Shown: positions 1,985 through 10,046 of the stretch, in pieces
Layout of the letters: the number at the start of each line of letters is the position of its first letter
Numbering within the stretch: the first letter of the stretch is position 1
NCBI GenBank assembly: GCA_947645355.1
Contig: CANSCI010000015.1
Span: forward strand, 1-37,698
Source: an uncultured Dorea sp.
Lineage (GTDB): Bacteria; Bacillota; Clostridia; Lachnospirales; Lachnospiraceae
Length of the DNA stretch: 37,698 nucleotides
Reading direction: 5' to 3'
Program-made: the position numbers and the translations under genes
The notes under the pieces: model-generated
What the model was told of the DNA's origin: nothing
Databases searched by the model: none
Seen by the model: the letters and a program-made list of their open reading frames with translations, nothing else

Positions 1985-3295
1985 TTACGAAGAAAAATAA
2001 AAATTTTTTACAATTAATTCAAAATCTGCCTTTTCCACCGTTCCAATCAAAAAATATTTTGCCTTTTTATAGTCAAAATCTGCCGAATATTTTTTTGTTC
2101 CTGTTTTTTCCACCTGATATTCCCTAATTCTAATATCCACGCCTTTGACTTCGAGGTAATATTCATCCGTAGCCTTATCCTCCACATCTACACCAAAAGA
2201 GTCCTTTGAATACATCATATTAACTATATATAATATATTTTGATCGTTACATCTATAAAGTAACTCTGCAACCTGTACATCTTCTTCCACATCTGCCGAT
2301 ACAAATTCCGTATCTCTCGGCAATACAACCATTCTTACCGGATTAATTCCGAATGCTTCCTTAATTTCTTGATAAGCTTCTTCTTCCTTTTCCCCCTCCA
2401 TTACTAAATTGTCTTTATCAGAATCTGCCTGTTCAACTGATCTTACTCCAACACCTCTTTTCATCATCCTCATTATATTCTCAGGCCCGCCAAAGGTATT
2501 CACCCCCAAAATTGCCACTAACGCAACCACAGCCGCCGCACCGGCGTAAGCCCGATATCTTCTCCGTCTGCGGACATTTTTCTTCACGCTCCTGCCAATA
2601 TCCTTACCGTCTTCCTCCATGCCCTCTTCATTCTGTCCGGGCAGATCATCTGCACACCTGACACCGGCATCCTCCGACACGGCGGAATGACTTAGCCGAC
2701 TGTCCTCTGTATCTGCCTGTCTGACAGCACCTGGGCAGCTGCCATCCCCGTGCGGCGTCCCGGCGCCGTTGTCTGAACGGCATACAACGTCCTCCGGCAC
2801 GGTGCCTTCCTCCCGCCTCCCGGTGCCTCTGTCTGAACGGCATACAATATCCTCCGGCACGGTGCTTTCCTCCCGCATCCCGGTGCCTCTGTCTGAACGG
2901 CATACGACATCTGCCTTCCCGGTGCCCGTTTCAGGCTTCTTGCCGTCATGATCTGAGGATCCTGCATCCTCAGCCCCGCTGCCGGCAGCATCCAACTTCC
3001 CGGCAACATTCCCTCTTTGCCCCGTATCCATATGCGGCTGCCCTGCATCCGCATCATTCATGGTCTCAAGCCCGACCTTCATTGCCTCCTGATATTTCTC
3101 CGGAAGCTGTTCCACCAGCCTGGCAACCTCATACTCATGGATCTTCTCATACAGTTTCTCTTTAATCTCTGCTTTCTTCTCTGCCGAGAGCATCTCCGGA
3201 TCCTCCTCTGCGGCAATCGTTTCGCGAATCACTGCTGCCTCTTTTTCCAGATCCTCTTTAATCAGTTGCTCCAGAATGTCCCTGTTCTCACTCAT
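1985..3295 (-). CDS. membrane protein with DUF4367-like C-terminus, possible anti-sigma partner
   Basis: The 436-residue protein has an N-terminal charged helical region (residues 1-85), a long low-complexity linker holding a 20-residue tandem repeat (VCRSDRGTG core), one membrane segment (AYAGAAAVVALVAILGVN) and an extracytoplasmic C-terminal domain resembling DUF4367. That layout fits cytoplasmic-TM-extracellular proteins encoded next to ECF sigma genes. Start ATG 3295 has GAGGT 9 bases upstream; a TTG 18 bases further up is less likely. The only sigma gene nearby lies beyond the plus-strand murG gene, so pairing with it is inference. The cytoplasmic N-terminus lacks a visible zinc HxxxCxxC anti-sigma motif. 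Confidence 0.6.
   Translation of the reverse strand: MSENRDILEQLIKEDLEKEAAVIRETIAAEEDPEMLSAEKKAEIKEKLYEKIHEYEVARLVEQLPEKYQEAMKVGLETMNDADAGQPHMDTGQRGNVAGKLDAAGSGAEDAGSSDHDGKKPETGTGKADVVCRSDRGTGMREESTVPEDIVCRSDRGTGRREEGTVPEDVVCRSDNGAGTPHGDGSCPGAVRQADTEDSRLSHSAVSEDAGVRCADDLPGQNEEGMEEDGKDIGRSVKKNVRRRRRYRAYAGAAAVVALVAILGVNTFGGPENIMRMMKRGVGVRSVEQADSDKDNLVMEGEKEEEAYQEIKEAFGINPVRMVVLPRDTEFVSADVEEDVQVAELLYRCNDQNILYIVNMMYSKDSFGVDVEDKATDEYYLEVKGVDIRIREYQVEKTGTKKYSADFDYKKAKYFLIGTVEKADFELIVKNFYFSS
2771..2930. repeat. 60-bp in-gene tandem repeat, about 2.7 copies
   Basis: GTCTGAACGGCATAC starts at 2771, 2831 and 2891, giving an exact 60-bp period and a 20-residue protein repeat in the linker of the DUF4367-like protein. 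The first two units are nearly identical; the third diverges after about 20 bases. The period is a multiple of three, so copy-number change would keep the frame. Confidence 0.9.
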
Positions 3296-3341
3296 CTTGA
3301 TTCTACCTCGCAAAAATTAATAAACTACTTTTGTCTTCCTC

Positions 3342-3369
3342 TTGACCAAATTCGTCTGCAACGTATAAT
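3342..3369 (+). promoter_or_regulatory. sigma-A promoter of the murG gene
   Basis: TTGACC, a 16-base spacer and a perfect TATAAT lie 56 bases upstream of the start codon. It is the clearest promoter in this divergent intergenic region. Confidence 0.7.
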
Positions 3370-3424
3370 ATAATTATAGTACAGTTACCAATCTTATGGT
3401 ACGGCAATTATCTGGGAGGTTACT

Positions 3425-4492
3425 ATGAAACGTATTATTTTAACCGGAGGCGGCACGGCGGGCCATGTTACTCCTAACATCGCACTTCTTCCCCGTCTGA
3501 AAGAGCTGCAATATGATATCCACTATATTGGTTCTTATCATGGAATTGAAAAAGAACTGATCGAACAGTTCGGGATTCCTTATCATGGAATAGCTACCGG
3601 TAAACTCAGACGCTATTTCAGCGTGCAGAATTTCACCGACCCGTTCCGCGTACTGAAAGGTATGGGCGATGCCAAAAAATTAGTAAAAATATTAAAACCG
3701 GATGTAATCTTCTCCAAAGGAGGATTCGTATCCGTTCCCGTCGTACTTGCCGGCAAAAGCCGCCATGTCCCGACCCTCATCCATGAGTCCGATATGACTC
3801 CCGGTCTTGCAAATAAGCTATCCTTATTTGCGGCCACAAAAGTATGCTGCAATTTTCCGGAGACGGTGCTTTTTCTCCCGCAGGGGAAAGCTGTCCTTAC
3901 CGGATCACCGATCCGCCAGGAACTCCTTAACGGAGACAAATACAAGGCCCGCAGCTTCCTTGGCTTTACGTCCGATAAACCAGTAATCCTGATCGTAGGC
4001 GGAAGCCTTGGTTCTGTAGCTGTCAATAATGCAGTCCGTGGGATTTTGCCGGAATTATTAAAGACCTATCAGGTCATCCATCTGTGCGGCAGAGGAAAGA
4101 TTGACGAGTCCTTAAAAGATCTTGAAGGCTACGTGCAGTTTGAATATGTAAAAGAAGAATTGAAAGATCTGTTCGCACTTACCGATATCGTAATATCAAG
4201 AGCCGGAGCCAATGCAATCTGCGAGCTGCTCGCGCTGCATAAGCCTAATCTTCTGATCCCGCTTTCTGCAAATGCAAGCCGGGGAGACCAGATCTTAAAT
4301 GCCCGTTCTTTTGAACGCCAGGGCTTCAGTGTCGTATTGGAAGAAGAAGAACTGACTCCAGAGCTCCTTCTGTCCTCCATCAACCGCCTGTATGAAAATA
4401 AGGAAACTTACATAACTGCAATGAAACAAGCCCCGCAGCAAAATTCTATCGATACTATCATCGATCTGATTGAATCTGTAAGCTGCCGATAA
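3425..4492 (+). CDS. murG: MurG-family UDP-GlcNAc:lipid I N-acetylglucosaminyltransferase
   Basis: MurG transfers GlcNAc from UDP-GlcNAc to undecaprenyl-PP-MurNAc-pentapeptide at the inner face of the membrane, making lipid II. The 355-residue length is normal for the family. Motifs seen: GGGTAGH (residues 8-14) for the lipid/diphosphate loop, KPDVIFSKGGFVSVP, HESDMTPGLANK, IVGGSLGS, and the nucleotide-sugar site SRAGANAICELLAL...LIPL. GGGAGG lies 5 bases before the ATG. The gene stands alone between minus-strand genes and has no dcw cell-wall neighbours, so it may be a stand-alone copy or a second MurG-like enzyme. The HESD motif (rather than HEQN) is a variant I know from Firmicutes. Confidence 0.92.
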   Translation: MKRIILTGGGTAGHVTPNIALLPRLKELQYDIHYIGSYHGIEKELIEQFGIPYHGIATGKLRRYFSVQNFTDPFRVLKGMGDAKKLVKILKPDVIFSKGGFVSVPVVLAGKSRHVPTLIHESDMTPGLANKLSLFAATKVCCNFPETVLFLPQGKAVLTGSPIRQELLNGDKYKARSFLGFTSDKPVILIVGGSLGSVAVNNAVRGILPELLKTYQVIHLCGRGKIDESLKDLEGYVQFEYVKEELKDLFALTDIVISRAGANAICELLALHKPNLLIPLSANASRGDQILNARSFERQGFSVVLEEEELTPELLLSSINRLYENKETYITAMKQAPQQNSIDTIIDLIESVSCR

Positions 4493-4517
4493 TGTTCCGC
4501 AGCGCAACCTTTTGTAC

Positions 4518-4546
4518 AAAACAGGTGCCGTGCCGGCACCTGTTTT
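4518..4546. terminator. bidirectional terminator between murG and the sigma gene
   Basis: AAAACAGGTGCC pairs perfectly with GGCACCTGTTTT over 12 bp with a 5-base loop, and T tracts occur on both strands. Its right edge overlaps the sigma gene stop codon, so it can serve both convergent genes. Confidence 0.85.
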
Positions 4547-5090
4547 ACGCTTTATCCAGATGTCGATATTTCTCTTCGTAATTTCTTCTTATCCACTGCT
4601 TTGCCCGATACAGCATGCTGTGCAGAACTTCCAGCGATACTCCCATAGCCTCTGCTACTTCCTTCTGAGGCTTTTCCAGAAAATATGTAATCATAACCGC
4701 ATCGTACCAACGCTCATTTACGTGGTACAACTCTGAAAATATATTTTCAGCAAGTTCCCGGTGTTCCTTCTCACGCAGTTTCCTTATGAAACCATCTTCT
4801 AAACTTTCTCCTGGTTCGTCCTTGAATATAACTTCTTCAATCAGTGTTATCCGTTCATTGTCCCGTTTATAGTTCAATGCCATATGCTTTACTGTAGTCA
4901 ACAGCCAGGTGTTCACTGCCTTCATATTGACATTATCCATGTTTATATATAATTTCACAAATACGTTTTGCGTAATTTCTTCCGCCGCATGATGATTGCC
5001 AGAGTAATACAGTGCTGTATGATATACACAATCTACGTTGGCCTCATAAATCGCACTAAAAGCCGTTTTGCCGATTGATTTTACTCTCAC
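4545..5090 (-). CDS. ECF-type RNA polymerase sigma factor
   Basis: The 181-residue protein has region 2 (residues about 12-80, including HAAEEITQNVFVKLY and NTWLLTTVKHMALNYKR) and region 4 with a helix-turn-helix (KPQKEVAEAMGVSLEVLHSMLYRAKQWIRRNY), the order of a small sigma-70 family factor. The start is GTG, with AAGGA 7 bases upstream. No anti-sigma gene overlaps or follows it directly; the DUF4367-like membrane protein 1.2 kb downstream is a candidate partner, separated by convergent murG. The stop codon sits inside the shared terminator. Target genes cannot be read from the window. Confidence 0.85.
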   Translation of the reverse strand: MRVKSIGKTAFSAIYEANVDCVYHTALYYSGNHHAAEEITQNVFVKLYINMDNVNMKAVNTWLLTTVKHMALNYKRDNERITLIEEVIFKDEPGESLEDGFIRKLREKEHRELAENIFSELYHVNERWYDAVMITYFLEKPQKEVAEAMGVSLEVLHSMLYRAKQWIRRNYEEKYRHLDKA

Positions 5091-5123
5091 TTTTTCATCC
5101 TTCGCTTTCTAATGCTCATGTCC

Positions 5124-5531
5124 TTATTTTAATCCAGACAGAATCTCATCTTTATCTTGTTCAGTTAATTCTCCCATCTTCCATCCAAGGCCGACACCGT
5201 CGTTCTTATATCTTGGTATCATATGCAGATGGAAATGGAATACCGTCTGCCCGGCTGCCTCCCCGTTATTCTGTACGATATTGTAACCGTCGCACCCAAG
5301 AAAGTCTGTAAGCCGGGTAATCATTTTCTTTGCCAGTACAAGTACCTTCGCCGCAAGCTCATCGCTGAGCTCATACAGGTTGGCATAATGTTCCTTAGGG
5401 AGGATCAAAGCATGCCCCTTTGCTGCCGGCCCTGCATCCAGAATCACCCGGAAATCATCATCTTCATATAAAGTTGCCGTCGGAATATCCCCGTTAGCAA
5501 GTTTACAAAAAATGCAATTCTCGTCCTTCAT
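5124..5531 (-). CDS. HIT family nucleotide hydrolase or transferase
   Basis: The 135-residue protein carries the histidine triad HFHLHMIPR near residues 98-106 and the N-terminal CIFCKLANGDIPTATLYEDDDF block of bacterial HIT (HinT-like) proteins, which hydrolyse nucleoside phosphoramidates or related mononucleotides in the cytosol. The two cysteines of CIFC are part of the zinc-binding N-terminus of many members. Length is typical. It is 33 bases upstream of the sigma gene on the same strand, so the two may form an operon. Confidence 0.92.
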   Translation of the reverse strand: MKDENCIFCKLANGDIPTATLYEDDDFRVILDAGPAAKGHALILPKEHYANLYELSDELAAKVLVLAKKMITRLTDFLGCDGYNIVQNNGEAAGQTVFHFHLHMIPRYKNDGVGLGWKMGELTEQDKDEILSGLK

Positions 5532-5619: not shown

Positions 5620-6390
5620 ATGTTTTCATCAACAGATTTTGACAAATTACAACAACTCATGGAAGAAAGCACCGAGAACAAAGAGCTTCTCACAAAACTT
5701 CTCGCATCCCACCGGATGGAGATCAGCGCTGTCAGCCATGAGATCCGTAACCCATTAACACTTGTATACAGTACCCTGCAGCTCATCGAATCCCAACATC
5801 CGGAAGTTGCTTCCTTTCAGCACTGGGATGAAATGCGCCGGGATATTGAATATATGAACGAGCTTCTGAATGACCTGTCCCTGTATAACAACAACGACCA
5901 ACTCAGGCTCGCACCTGTAGATTCAAACACACTTTTTAAAACCGCAGCCCTGTCCTTCGCATCCTCCATTGTACATACAGACATCCAGTTTACATCCACA
6001 ATACCGCCGCAGCTTCCGTCCATTTATGCAGATGCGGTAAAATTGCGTCAACTTCTCTTAAACCTTCTCACCAACGCAAAGGATGCTGTATATCCTGCCC
6101 CGTTAAAGGGCCGGACTCCTGCGATCTTCCTTGAAGTCTCTGCAGGGCATCAGTTTCTGACCGTCCGTGTACAGGACAATGGCTGCGGCATCCCGTCTGA
6201 CAGGATCGCACATATCTTCGAGCCCTTTGTCACACACAAACAGCATGGTACCGGACTTGGGCTTGCCATCAGCGCCGGAATTGCAAAAGCACACAATGGT
6301 TCCCTCACCGTTACATCAGATCCGGAAATCTGCACGGTATTCACCCTGACCCTTCCGGTACAAAATAACACCAAAGACAAAACCAGATAA
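5620..6390 (+). CDS. soluble orphan sensor histidine kinase
   Basis: The 256-residue protein has all kinase core boxes: H box SHEIRNPLT with His40, N box NLLTNAKDA, G1 DNGCGIP, F box FEPF and G2 GTGLGLAI. It has no membrane segment, no PAS or GAF domain and only about 35 residues before the H box, so it is a cytosolic kinase that must receive its signal through a partner. No response regulator gene is adjacent. Its 3' end overlaps the convergent rhomboid gene by 75 bases. The H box resembles the KinA/KinC-like spore kinases, but a sporulation role is not shown by the sequence. Confidence 0.9.
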   Translation: MFSSTDFDKLQQLMEESTENKELLTKLLASHRMEISAVSHEIRNPLTLVYSTLQLIESQHPEVASFQHWDEMRRDIEYMNELLNDLSLYNNNDQLRLAPVDSNTLFKTAALSFASSIVHTDIQFTSTIPPQLPSIYADAVKLRQLLLNLLTNAKDAVYPAPLKGRTPAIFLEVSAGHQFLTVRVQDNGCGIPSDRIAHIFEPFVTHKQHGTGLGLAISAGIAKAHNGSLTVTSDPEICTVFTLTLPVQNNTKDKTR

Positions 6391-6930
6391 CAGCCCGCCT
6401 ATGTGGGCATAATTATCTACGCCGCCGCTTATAAAGCCAAAATACAGGCTTAAAGCAACCATGAATACGAGACCTCTGCTGGAAATATCCCTTATACGCC
6501 CTTTATTTCGTATTGCGATATAGAGAAGAGCGCCGATAATCCCGAAAATTGCTCCGGATGCCCCTGCCGATACCGAGAAATCATGTACACCAATATCGTG
6601 ACAGGCCGACAGCACGTTTCCGCAGAAACCACTGAGAACATATATCATCAAGAACTTTATTTTTCCCGTTTCCTGCTCCAGATTCCATCCGATTACAAAA
6701 AGCATTGTCATATTATTTAGTAGATGCTCGAATCAAAAATGCATAAACATAATGGTAAACAGGCGGTAATATTCTCCCCGCTCTGCAATGTACGGCACAT
6801 ACATCGCACCATGTTCCAACATAAATCCCCCATCCTCTGTCATTCCCCGGGACGTCAGAACAATAAATGCAATGATATTGACTGCGGCAAGCACAACTGT
6901 GCAGGGAGCCTTTATTCTATTAATTCTCAT
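6316..6930 (-). pseudogene. rhomboid intramembrane serine protease interrupted by one in-frame TGA
   Basis: Codons from ATG 6930 give MRINRIKAPCTVV..., reach FTIMFMHF, then TGA (6735-6733), then continue in the same frame with FEHLLNNMTMLFVIGWNLE to a stop at 6316. The rhomboid consensus at this point is HFGFEHLLNNM, so a glycine codon GGA has become TGA. The rest is intact: catalytic Ser in GASGAIFG and His in YAHIGGLLSGF, six hydrophobic segments, about 204 codons in total. Either the gene is a recent pseudogene, the base is a sequencing error, or TGA is read through. An internal ATG at 6711 could start a protein lacking the first helix and the HxxxN loop, unlikely to be active. Confidence 0.85.
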
Positions 6931-6962
6931 CTATCATTGTTCACCCTTTGATATTTTCATAT

Positions 6963-7073
6963 CCCGTAATTCTTGCCCTCCAAGCCGGTGGACTTCGTCC
7001 GGTGATGTATACCCTTTCGGACACCCCGTAATTCTTGCCCTCCGGGCTGGCGGACTTCGTCCGGTGATGTATA
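6963..7073. repeat. two 49-bp direct repeats, 62-bp period
   Basis: Copies at 6963-7011 and 7025-7073 differ only around the centre (AAGCCGGTGG versus GGGCTGGCGG). Each has the small hairpin GGAC-TTC-GTCC; the second also has GCCC-TCC-GGGC. They lie immediately upstream of the rhomboid gene, at the edge of the gene-free stretch. They look like a REP-like dispersed unit, but no further copies occur in this window. Confidence 0.85.
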
Positions 7074-7332
7074 GTATAACACAAAATGCGGATTAGCGAA
7101 AGGGCTTATACGCGTTAGTTCATGGAATATCTTGTGGTTTTCTTTTAAATTCTGTACATGAGGTCGTAATTTTAATATTTTTGCCGGCGCGCTGGATACA
7201 AAACCCGTATGTCAGGTCCACGACAAAAATATAATGAAAACAACAATCACAAACATATCTCTCATACGAGCCAACAATTCGTCAAAATAGTTTCCGCCTC
7301 CGAGATTCTATGGACTGCCAGCCTGCAACTTC

Positions 7333-7365: not shown

Positions 7366-7523
7366 CTGAAATGTAATGATTACATGCTCCAGCTCCGAGC
7401 CAAGTTGGCCATATAAAAACCTTTCAGTGCCCTCATTCTATCGAGGTTTTCGACACTCCAAGATGGATAAATCTCTATACGGCAGCTAATGATGATGTTT
7501 ATTTATGATACCGGAACGTAAGG

Positions 7524-7566
7524 AACTCAGTTTGTCTATATATTCTCGGACATGCTGAGTTTTTTA
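7524..7566 (+). terminator. intrinsic terminator-like hairpin upstream of abiE
   Basis: AACTCAG/CTGAGTT (7524-7530 and 7555-7561) plus inner TGTC/GACA (7533-7536 and 7549-7552) form an interrupted stem followed by a run of T. It insulates the abiE promoter from anything upstream. Confidence 0.5.
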
Positions 7567-7613
7567 TATTAAACCACACTATTGAATGATTTATTTATGG
7601 CGCTTTACTATAA

Positions 7614-7642
7614 TTGACTTTTCATACAAAAGAGGATATACT
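7614..7642 (+). promoter_or_regulatory. sigma-A promoter of the abiE operon
   Basis: TTGACT, a 17-base spacer and TATACT lie 58 bases upstream of the abiEi start codon. AbiEi antitoxins autorepress their operons in characterised systems; no obvious inverted-repeat operator is visible here. Confidence 0.65.
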
Positions 7643-7699
7643 ATAACAAATCACATAATTGTTGAGATATTTTTGTGTGGATTAATAGAGGTGTAATCA

Positions 7700-8308
7700 A
7701 TGCTTGATGAAAAAGTGATAGATACTGTCAGAAGAATTTTTTTTGACCATGATTGTATCATGACAACCGCTGAACTTAATTCTTATAAATTATATTATGC
7801 AGATATTCAGAAATTATTAGATGAAGGACTAATTGAAAAGGTAAAATGGGGATATTACCATTGGGTGGATTCTTTTGACGGACAGGAGGTCAAGATCATC
7901 AACCGACTTTTTCCAGATGCAGTTCTTTGTATGGAAACAGCTCTCTTTTATTATCATTATAGCGACCGTAATCCAGCCGAATGGAATATTACGGTTGATA
8001 AAAATGTTTCAAGGAATCGTACAAAGATAGATTATCCGTTTGTAAAGGCTTATAGAGTTGAGCCTTATTTCGTGCCACTGGGGGAAATAAAAGGAAGTAT
8101 TGATTTTGTAGATGTCCGCATTTACGACCGTGACCGTACGATTTGTGATGTCTTGCGGAATATGGGCAAGATAGATAAAGAAATTTTTAATAAAGCAGTT
8201 CAAGGTTATGTGAGGGACACACAGAAAAATATCCCAAACCTTATGAAATATGCAAAGGAACTCAGGATGCAGAAGAAAGTAAAAGAATTGATCGGAGTGT
8301 GGTTGTAG
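7700..8308 (+). CDS. abiEi: AbiEi-family type IV antitoxin
   Basis: The 202-residue protein has an N-terminal winged-helix-like segment (MTTAELNSYKLYYADIQKLLDEGLIEKVKWGYY) followed by the AbiEi C-terminal region (DAVLCMETALFYYHYSDRNP, then VDVRIYDRDRTICDVLRN). In AbiE systems this protein neutralises the nucleotidyltransferase toxin without binding it directly and represses the operon. GAGGTG lies upstream of the ATG. Its stop codon TAG shares one base with the GTG start of the toxin gene (TAGTG), indicating translational coupling. The gene is visibly more AT-rich than the Tad genes to its right, consistent with acquisition. Confidence 0.88.
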   Translation: MLDEKVIDTVRRIFFDHDCIMTTAELNSYKLYYADIQKLLDEGLIEKVKWGYYHWVDSFDGQEVKIINRLFPDAVLCMETALFYYHYSDRNPAEWNITVDKNVSRNRTKIDYPFVKAYRVEPYFVPLGEIKGSIDFVDVRIYDRDRTICDVLRNMGKIDKEIFNKAVQGYVRDTQKNIPNLMKYAKELRMQKKVKELIGVWL

Positions 8309-9204
8309 TGGCTGATATTGCGGCATCTGTTTTGGCAAGGCTAAGGAATAAGGCAAAGGCAGCTGGCATTAGTTATCAGCAATGCTTACAGCTTTTTATG
8401 CAGGAGGAATTTTTGCGGAAACTTTCAAAATCGGGGCATGAGGATACTCTTATTCTTAAAGGCGGTTTGTTTATTTATACGCTTACAAACTTTGAAAGTC
8501 GAGCGACTGTTGATGTGGATTTCCTATTGCGCAGTGTTTCTAACTCGTTAGAAGAAGTACAGGCTCTTATTGTAAAAATTCTTGCCGTACCTACGGGCAA
8601 TGATTATATTGAAATGACAGCCAAAGGCTTTGAGAAAATTTCCCCACAAAGGAAATATCACGGCATTAGTACACAGATTATCGGAAAAATTAAAAATGTC
8701 CGTGTGCCGTTCAATGTAGATATAGGAGTCGGGGATGTGATTGTGCCATGTGCCGAGGAACGGACGATTCATACGCAGCTTCCTGATTTTGAATCTCCTG
8801 TTATTATGACGTATTCTCTTGAAAGTACGATTGCTGAAAAGTTTGACGCCATTTTACAGCGGTTTGAGCTGACAGGCAGGATGAAAGATTTTTATGATAT
8901 ATATTATTTGGCAAGGACATTTGATTTTAATGGAACGAGATTGCAGATGGCGATTGCCAGAACATTGGAACGGCGCAGGACACCCTATGAAAAAGATAGT
9001 TTCAAGCATATTCTCGCACTTGCTGAAGATGTGGATATGCAGAAACGGTGGAAATTCTTCTTGAAAACCATAAAAGATGATACGCTTGAGTTTTCGGTGG
9101 TTATTGAGGAAATACAGACCTTCCTTGAGCCTGTATTTGATGCGATTGTGAATGAGTCTAAATGGTATAATTTATGGAAACCAAAAGATGGTATATGGTT
9201 GTAG
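8308..9204 (+). CDS. abiEii: AbiEii/AbiGii nucleotidyltransferase toxin
   Basis: The 298-residue protein has the DUF1814/AbiEii nucleotidyltransferase core: LKGGLFIYT, the metal-site motif TVDVDFLL (two Asp), SLESTIAEKFDAI and RMKDFYDIYYLAR. Such toxins, partnered with AbiEi, cause growth arrest; a related family member modifies tRNA 3' ends, but the target here is not shown. I chose GTG 8308, overlapping the antitoxin stop, because GGAG is 10 bases upstream; an upstream in-frame GTG (8299) lies too close to that site. All catalytic motifs appear intact, so the pair is probably functional although its downstream gene is cut off. Confidence 0.88.
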   Translation: MADIAASVLARLRNKAKAAGISYQQCLQLFMQEEFLRKLSKSGHEDTLILKGGLFIYTLTNFESRATVDVDFLLRSVSNSLEEVQALIVKILAVPTGNDYIEMTAKGFEKISPQRKYHGISTQIIGKIKNVRVPFNVDIGVGDVIVPCAEERTIHTQLPDFESPVIMTYSLESTIAEKFDAILQRFELTGRMKDFYDIYYLARTFDFNGTRLQMAIARTLERRRTPYEKDSFKHILALAEDVDMQKRWKFFLKTIKDDTLEFSVVIEEIQTFLEPVFDAIVNESKWYNLWKPKDGIWL

Positions 9205-9214
9205 GAGAAAGTTT

Positions 9215-9289
9215 ATGGATAAAAATCAAATAGTTGTAGCTATTGAAGGTATAGATGGAGCAGGAAAATTTATTGATAATCGCCTTTAG
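9215..9289 (+). pseudogene. truncated P-loop nucleotide kinase (thymidylate kinase-like) N-terminus
   Basis: An ATG with AGGAG 7 bases upstream begins a 24-codon frame containing VAIEGIDGAGK, the Walker A start of dTMP kinase-like enzymes. Immediately after GK, where Ser/Thr-Thr is expected, homology stops (FIDNRL then TAG). The gene is therefore a stub cut within the P-loop, the third gene of the abiE operon before a deletion or recombination joined it to the Tad locus. The product cannot bind nucleotide. Too short to identify the kinase subtype firmly. Confidence 0.75.
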
Positions 9290-9308
9290 CTCAACCGTTT
9301 CGCTTTCC

Positions 9309-10046
9309 TCAAAGTTCCTCTTCCTCAATATGCAGTCCGTCCCATTCTCCCCACCTCGGCTTTTTATGTTTTTTCAAAAACTTTTTCATCGGTGTCCAGA
9401 AGTTCTCCGCATCTTCCATGATACAGGTTCCCATCTCCTGCTCTGCCTCCCAATCGGTTCTCTCTGCGTCATACCTTACCGTTTCCCCCTGCATGCTCTC
9501 CTTTTGTTTGGAGATATCCTGATTATTAGACACCGCTTCTTCCTCCCGCAGACATTCATCCATAATTTTATCAAGACTATAATTTTCTTCCATAGTTTCT
9601 TTATGGAGAAGAAACGTCATTCTTATGCACTCCTGATCTGCATAATCTGCCCGTTTCACAAAATACTCCGTAAGTTCATGTATATCTTCCCACAGTTGTG
9701 TCTTTTTCAAAGGATAATAGCAAAAATAAAACTGCCCCTCCTCATAGAAAATATAATCCGGGTTCAACAAAATACAGTGGACATCCAGCAAATATTTTTT
9801 TACATTCTCAATCACATCTCTGAGCGCCAAAAGGAATGCTTTCAAGTCTTTTGCGCCTATTTCACTTTTCTCGTACAAAGCCCTGATTGCCAGCTTGCCG
9901 CTCACATCATAATCGTAACAGCTGTTCCCGTCCATCCCTCTTCCCCTTACCGGCAGCAGCCCCCCAATCTCATTGGCCCCCAGCATTCTCATCTGGTAAT
10001 CCTCCCTGTATACAGATGACTCCTCAATTGTGATCCGTCGCTCCAT
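9309..10046 (-). CDS. DUF6382 protein of the Tad locus, probably C-terminally truncated
   Basis: The 245-residue protein matches the DUF6382 N-terminal region found in Lachnospiraceae Tad loci (YDVSGKLAIRALYEKSEI, then VHCILLNPDYIFYEEGQFYFCYYPL), where it is normally followed by a linker and a forkhead-associated (FHA) phosphothreonine-binding domain. Here no FHA domain follows: the frame stops at TGA 9309 after HIEEEEL. One base out of frame the sequence continues as EESETVEL, the kind of segment expected between DUF6382 and FHA, before meeting the AbiE-side DNA near 9269-9290. I infer loss of the FHA half. Last gene of the Tad operon, 11 bases after tadE; GGAGG precedes the ATG. Confidence 0.75.
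   Translation of the reverse strand: MERRITIEESSVYREDYQMRMLGANEIGGLLPVRGRGMDGNSCYDYDVSGKLAIRALYEKSEIGAKDLKAFLLALRDVIENVKKYLLDVHCILLNPDYIFYEEGQFYFCYYPLKKTQLWEDIHELTEYFVKRADYADQECIRMTFLLHKETMEENYSLDKIMDECLREEEAVSNNQDISKQKESMQGETVRYDAERTDWEAEQEMGTCIMEDAENFWTPMKKFLKKHKKPRWGEWDGLHIEEEEL

Follow-up and report, generated by a model that had tools for sequence, protein, structure and literature searches.

In an uncultured Dorea sp., a short kinase-like reading frame behind an AbiE toxin-antitoxin pair ends just short of the stop of a DUF6382 gene belonging to a Tad operon, which raises the question of how these two unrelated segments came to be joined. The original prediction was a double truncation, in which a recombination or deletion fused a mobile AbiE segment to the Tad locus and thereby deprived the kinase of its body and the DUF6382 protein of its FHA half. 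To answer this question, we analyzed the window, meaning the whole 37,698-nucleotide stretch of DNA (contig CANSCI010000015.1), alongside related loci. In our view the joint is likely the right-hand boundary of a mobile defence cassette that has decayed; cassettes of this type are common in Lachnospiraceae, and this one sits between the DUF6382 gene and a rhomboid gene.

DUF6382, rhomboid and the segment between them

The features of the window that bear on the two flanking genes and on the DNA separating them are the following.

6319-6930, minus strand: rhomboid gene, native neighbour of DUF6382 (PF01694, E=4.2e-26; synteny in G001, G036 and G006)
7203-7262, no strand assigned: fragment common to mobile-element regions elsewhere (L168, 87% over 60 nt; L173, 93% over 30 nt)
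7255-7309, minus strand: RhuM-family gene fragment of 55 bases, mobile-element rubble (85-91% identity in L168-L172)
7431-9156, plus strand: AbiE core, common to other Lachnospiraceae at 93-94% (L059-L065, L140, L141)
7614-7642, plus strand: putative abiE promoter, TTGACT-17-TATACT, read from sequence
7700-8308, plus strand: abiEi, intact antitoxin/repressor gene, 202 aa (PADLOC AbiEi, E=3.3e-68)
8299-9204, plus strand: abiEii, intact toxin gene, 301 aa (PF08843, E=5.8e-44; PADLOC AbiEii, E=6.5e-89)
9309-10046, minus strand: complete Tad-operon DUF6382 gene in its short, FHA-less form, 245 aa (PF19909, E=1.7e-47)

The window protein carries the DUF6382 domain, while a C-terminal FHA domain is absent by Pfam from it as well as from its counterparts in G001 and G036. 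In G001, which belongs to the same genus, the protein has 255 residues and ends in WGEWDELHIEEEEL, and in G036 it has 233 residues and ends in WGDWDGLYIEEDEL; the window protein ends in WGEWDGLHIEEEEL, so that the last residues are the same in all three, the two relatives being the closest ones. Short forms occur in G006 and G033 as well, which brings the distribution to four genera, and longer DUF6382 proteins, one of them with a visible FHA-like end, are found in more distant relatives. Because the relatives have it too, the short form must be old in this group, and as judged from the sequences compared, the lack of FHA is an inherited trait and not damage. The supposed loss of an FHA domain thus falls away, relatives with such a short DUF6382 protein having been named in the prediction itself as evidence against it, and the peptide EESETVEL, previously read as an out-of-frame continuation of the gene, lies past the native stop and gains no support.

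In G001, G036 and G006 the rhomboid gene directly follows DUF6382, with a gap of 82 bases in G001, whereas in the window the two genes are about 2.4 kb apart. It follows from the adjacency in the relatives that about 2.3 kb of the window is an insert between the two genes, made up of mobile-element rubble, an intact AbiEi-AbiEii pair and a kinase stub. An insertion took place here, which carried one gene that is now broken and cut neither DUF6382 nor rhomboid at its boundaries. What stands of the predicted fusion is hence that a foreign AbiE segment was joined to the Tad locus and that the kinase lost its body; the DUF6382 protein lost no FHA domain. The search for a same-genus genome near enough at the DNA level to define the empty site to the base returned only one, about 70% identical.

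On the left side of the insert, the two fragments may be read as decayed mobile-element remains, the left edge itself being approximate; the full RhuM-family gene is present in L168 (PF13310, E=4.4e-110). The motif CCCGTATGTCAAGTCCACGACAAAAATA (window 7203-7262; L168, L173) recurs directly after integrase-like LRH coding ends in other genomes and is a possible attachment or insertion point. Upstream of rhomboid, two near-identical repeats of about 50 bases (CATCACCGGACGAAGTCC..GGGCAAGAATTACGGG) occupy 6960-7075, with related copies on contigs C26 and C51 of the same genome. The rhomboid frame is interrupted by a single in-frame TGA at 6733-6735, where relatives have a glycine (HF-stop-FEHL versus HFGFDHL), and is intact in its remainder, which makes it either a recent pseudogene or the site of a sequence error.

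Both AbiE proteins are recognized over essentially their whole length: AbiEi matches PDLC02248 (E=3.3e-68) over residues 7-202 of 202, and AbiEii, encoded directly 3' of it, matches PF08843 and PDLC02288 over its full length. AbiE loci of seven other Lachnospiraceae-type genomes match the core at 93-94% identity; similarity stops sharply on both sides at nearly the same points in all seven, and the flanks there differ. The carrier of L059 is Parablautia muri, which is in culture. AbiE is known as a type IV toxin-antitoxin system in which the toxin, AbiEii, is bacteriostatic and AbiEi acts as the repressor of the abiE promoter (Dy et al., 2014; PMC3985639). The window pair resembles it in having both proteins, an AbiEi-type gene first, overlapping genes (7700-8308 and 8299-9204), an AbiEii nucleotidyltransferase and a putative sigma-70 promoter just upstream. 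As far as the reading frames indicate, the pair is the sole part of the cassette that is potentially functional, its cargo being dead. A search of plasmids for the AbiE insert gave none. The same genome contains a second, more distant AbiE pair (G000:C50, L057, 1519-3055) without a coupled third gene.

The kinase remnant and the outer joint

Three further features describe the right end of the insert.

9215-9289, plus strand: stub of a dTMP-kinase-like gene, 24 codons, MDKNQIVVAIEGIDGAGKFIDNRL followed by a stop (79% DNA identity to the G287 kinase)
9263-9268, plus strand: GGAAA repeat, probable internal-deletion point in the stub (14/16 match to the later KGKFID stretch)
9279-9308, no strand assigned: interval within which the kinase remnant meets, at the outer right joint, the native DNA that follows DUF6382 (last kinase similarity at 9278; DUF6382 stop at 9309-9311)

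The stub begins as a genuine gene would, as had been predicted: the ribosome site GGAGAAAG precedes its ATG at 9215, 10 bases past the abiEii stop, and window positions 9197-9268 share 79% identity with the beginning of a 199-residue dTMP-kinase-like gene, intact and the only close relative found, in G287, another Lachnospiraceae genome. The G287 protein is a P-loop kinase of the thymidylate kinase family (PF02223, E=7e-14) with a weak PADLOC match (PDC-M51B, E=2.7e-6); upstream of its gene stands an RlmD-type gene instead of AbiE, and downstream a dCTP-deaminase-like gene (PF22769, E=2.8e-22). Start and P-loop agree between the two copies, but the G287 kinase is intact and the window copy is dead, keeping only start and P-loop of the PF02223 family and giving no Pfam match. 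From the sequence of the G287 genes, a kinase paired with a dCTP-deaminase-like protein would fit a nucleotide-directed defence. A search of the window's own assembly did not turn up the missing kinase body, kinase homologues were absent from plasmids, phages and viral contigs, and the proposed check, a strain with an intact abiEi-abiEii-kinase arrangement, had no counterpart among the AbiE loci.

The frame had been thought to stop exactly after AIEGIDGAGK. It reads on into GKFID, a stretch that the intact kinase has about 25 codons further along (..THKGKFIDRIV..) and that appears as KGRFID in a second kinase relative, in G129. Over 9263-9278 (GGAAAATTTATTGATA), 14 of 16 bases match this later stretch, and random tails behind GGAAAA match as well in about 0.1% of trials. 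Short as the match is, the stub thus probably keeps ten further kinase bases behind an in-frame GGAAA-to-GGAAA deletion, and the probable order of events is therefore that this internal deletion came before the outer joint. The outer joint probably lies within 9279-9308, bracketed and not placed to the base.

The cassette that we regard as likely would thus consist of an abiEi-abiEii head followed by an exchangeable cargo gene or system. Its cargo in the window would be the dTMP-kinase-like gene, the last gene of the cassette, most of which would have been lost in two steps: slippage between a pair of GGAAA repeats that deleted an internal part, and another deletion extending into the native DNA that follows DUF6382. 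Neither DUF6382 nor its operon would have been cut at any point.

Two other origins of the joint have to be weighed against this one. A double truncation, in which a single event cost the kinase its body and the DUF6382 protein its FHA half, would account for the kinase stub, which is real, and could appeal to the longer DUF6382 proteins of distant relatives; it is nevertheless very hard to reconcile with a short FHA-less protein that recurs across four genera and ends in identical residues in the closest two relatives, and with a rhomboid gene directly after DUF6382 in three of them, and we consider it highly improbable. An assembler might instead have joined two unrelated pieces, as the genome is fragmented (172 contigs, 88% complete) and the joint is known from the assembly alone. 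Against this, the correct native neighbours lie on both outer sides and several separate short remnants occur on both sides with an intact AbiE between them, a picture that looks like decay in a real genome and makes an artefact unlikely.

Exchange of the gene behind abiEii

We asked which gene stands behind abiEii in a set of 80 related AbiE loci. A third gene of one of 16 types (one type unclassified) is present in 55 of them and a recombinase remnant in 2, and the other 23 have no recognized cargo, some of these lying at a contig end. The systems found right behind abiEii are Lamassu, CBASS, Gabija, restriction-modification, Hachiman, TOTE, kinase and dCTP-deaminase-like. As assigned by Pfam and PADLOC, the cargo genes include those for three kinds of Lamassu LmuA, a SAVED-type CBASS effector, a CD-NTase, Gabija GajA, type II and C5 methyltransferases, a PD-T4-6-like protein kinase, HamA, a TOTE protein, a nucleoside phosphorylase (PNP) and two dCTP-deaminase-like (DCD) proteins. 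In the loci checked, partner genes come next (LmuB, GajB, E1-E2, JAB and the CBASS cyclase).

The coupling is one-sided. In 45 of 48 cargo frames the cargo starts within -34 to +22 nt of the abiEii stop, where the first possible codon served as the start and frames were sought from -40 to +120 of that stop only, so that the overlaps are upper limits. Upstream of AbiE, the nearest long reading frame is at least 79 bases away; many loci have there a recombinase or a common unclassified gene with no Pfam or NCBIfam match. The pattern is absent from the second AbiE pair of the same genome and from AbiE relatives under about 60% identity (more distant, on viral contigs), and is a property of one AbiE clade, not of AbiE in general. 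This clade is the constant head of putative composite operons whose second half is exchanged among anti-phage systems. It differs in this from the bicistronic operon described for type IV AbiE (PMC3985639), since a third, exchangeable gene usually stands behind the pair and the end of abiEii belongs to the cargo.

That last point emerges from the comparison of heads and tails. On an AbiEii tree, a quick tree with many weak forks (56 rows, window included, and 17 cargo states), the cargo type changes 33 times, compared with a mean of 38.4 for shuffled labels, which never fell below 33 in 200 trials. Past the conserved ..FLEPVFDAIVNE, the last ~20 residues of AbiEii go with the cargo: among heads sharing 94% identity or more, tail likeness is 94% where the cargo agrees and 37% where it differs, same-cargo tails are still more alike than others when the heads are more diverged, and permutation of tail-cargo labels reached the observed value in 0 of 2000 cases. 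The cargo is almost unlinked from the head because the AbiEii tail follows the cargo, and the exchange point therefore lies inside the abiEii 3' end. For the window abiEii, this analysis assigns the codons after about 286 to the exchangeable tail.

A search of the open-access literature, a scope that leaves most subscription papers and all bioRxiv preprints outside, gave no description of AbiE with exchangeable third genes. According to the abstract of PMC11062541, AbiE stabilizes an integrative and conjugative element (ICE) in Streptococcus suis. The AbiE of these ICESa2603-family elements is likewise carried on mobile DNA, and an addiction role is plausible; it differs in belonging to a streptococcal element, and the abstract makes no mention of an exchangeable defence tail.

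Possible control and protection of the cargo

The layout suggests a broader reading, which we offer tentatively and hold to be quite possible, if short of probable: in Lachnospiraceae and their neighbours, one AbiE clade would serve as a control-and-addiction head for interchangeable anti-phage systems, swapped at a fixed point inside the abiEii 3' end, the last ~20 residues of the toxin changing with the cargo. The cargo would ride on the AbiE transcript from the shared promoter and be held down by AbiEi, AbiEii would protect it by making loss of the cassette costly, and new cargo would be brought in by recombination within the abiEii 3' end.

Alternatively, AbiE and its cargo might be mere neighbours in a defence island, with no functional link and with recombination that happens to end in the abiEii tail. 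This explanation concerns only the control and addiction step, leaving the anatomy as it is, and we take it to be a doubtful but serious contender. Defence genes cluster in general, and the 23 loci without recognized cargo, like the second AbiE pair of this genome, show the head on its own; mere proximity, however, does not readily account for an arrangement coupled downstream with at least 79 bp to the upstream reading frame, nor for an abiEii tail that travels together with the cargo.

Taken by itself, the scar in the window is ordinary genome decay. The interest lies in the layout, with defence systems of widely differing kinds replacing one another behind a constant toxin-antitoxin pair. 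Should AbiE control or protect the cargo, the layout would help to account for the way in which defence systems are retained and passed around among gut Clostridia. It also offers a simple route to new systems, by reading the gene directly behind abiEii in this clade.

A further observation concerns genes found next to such loci. A common tail of about 100 residues (VKVEFGEGEGKVPLDNIAKRAE..; L167 2411-4189, L106 about 3063-5159, L003 3197-3565) closes both an RlmD-type methyltransferase and a Ccr-like serine recombinase, with AbiE or the kinase coming next. It is as though a mobile element appended a C-terminus of its own to the gene it enters.
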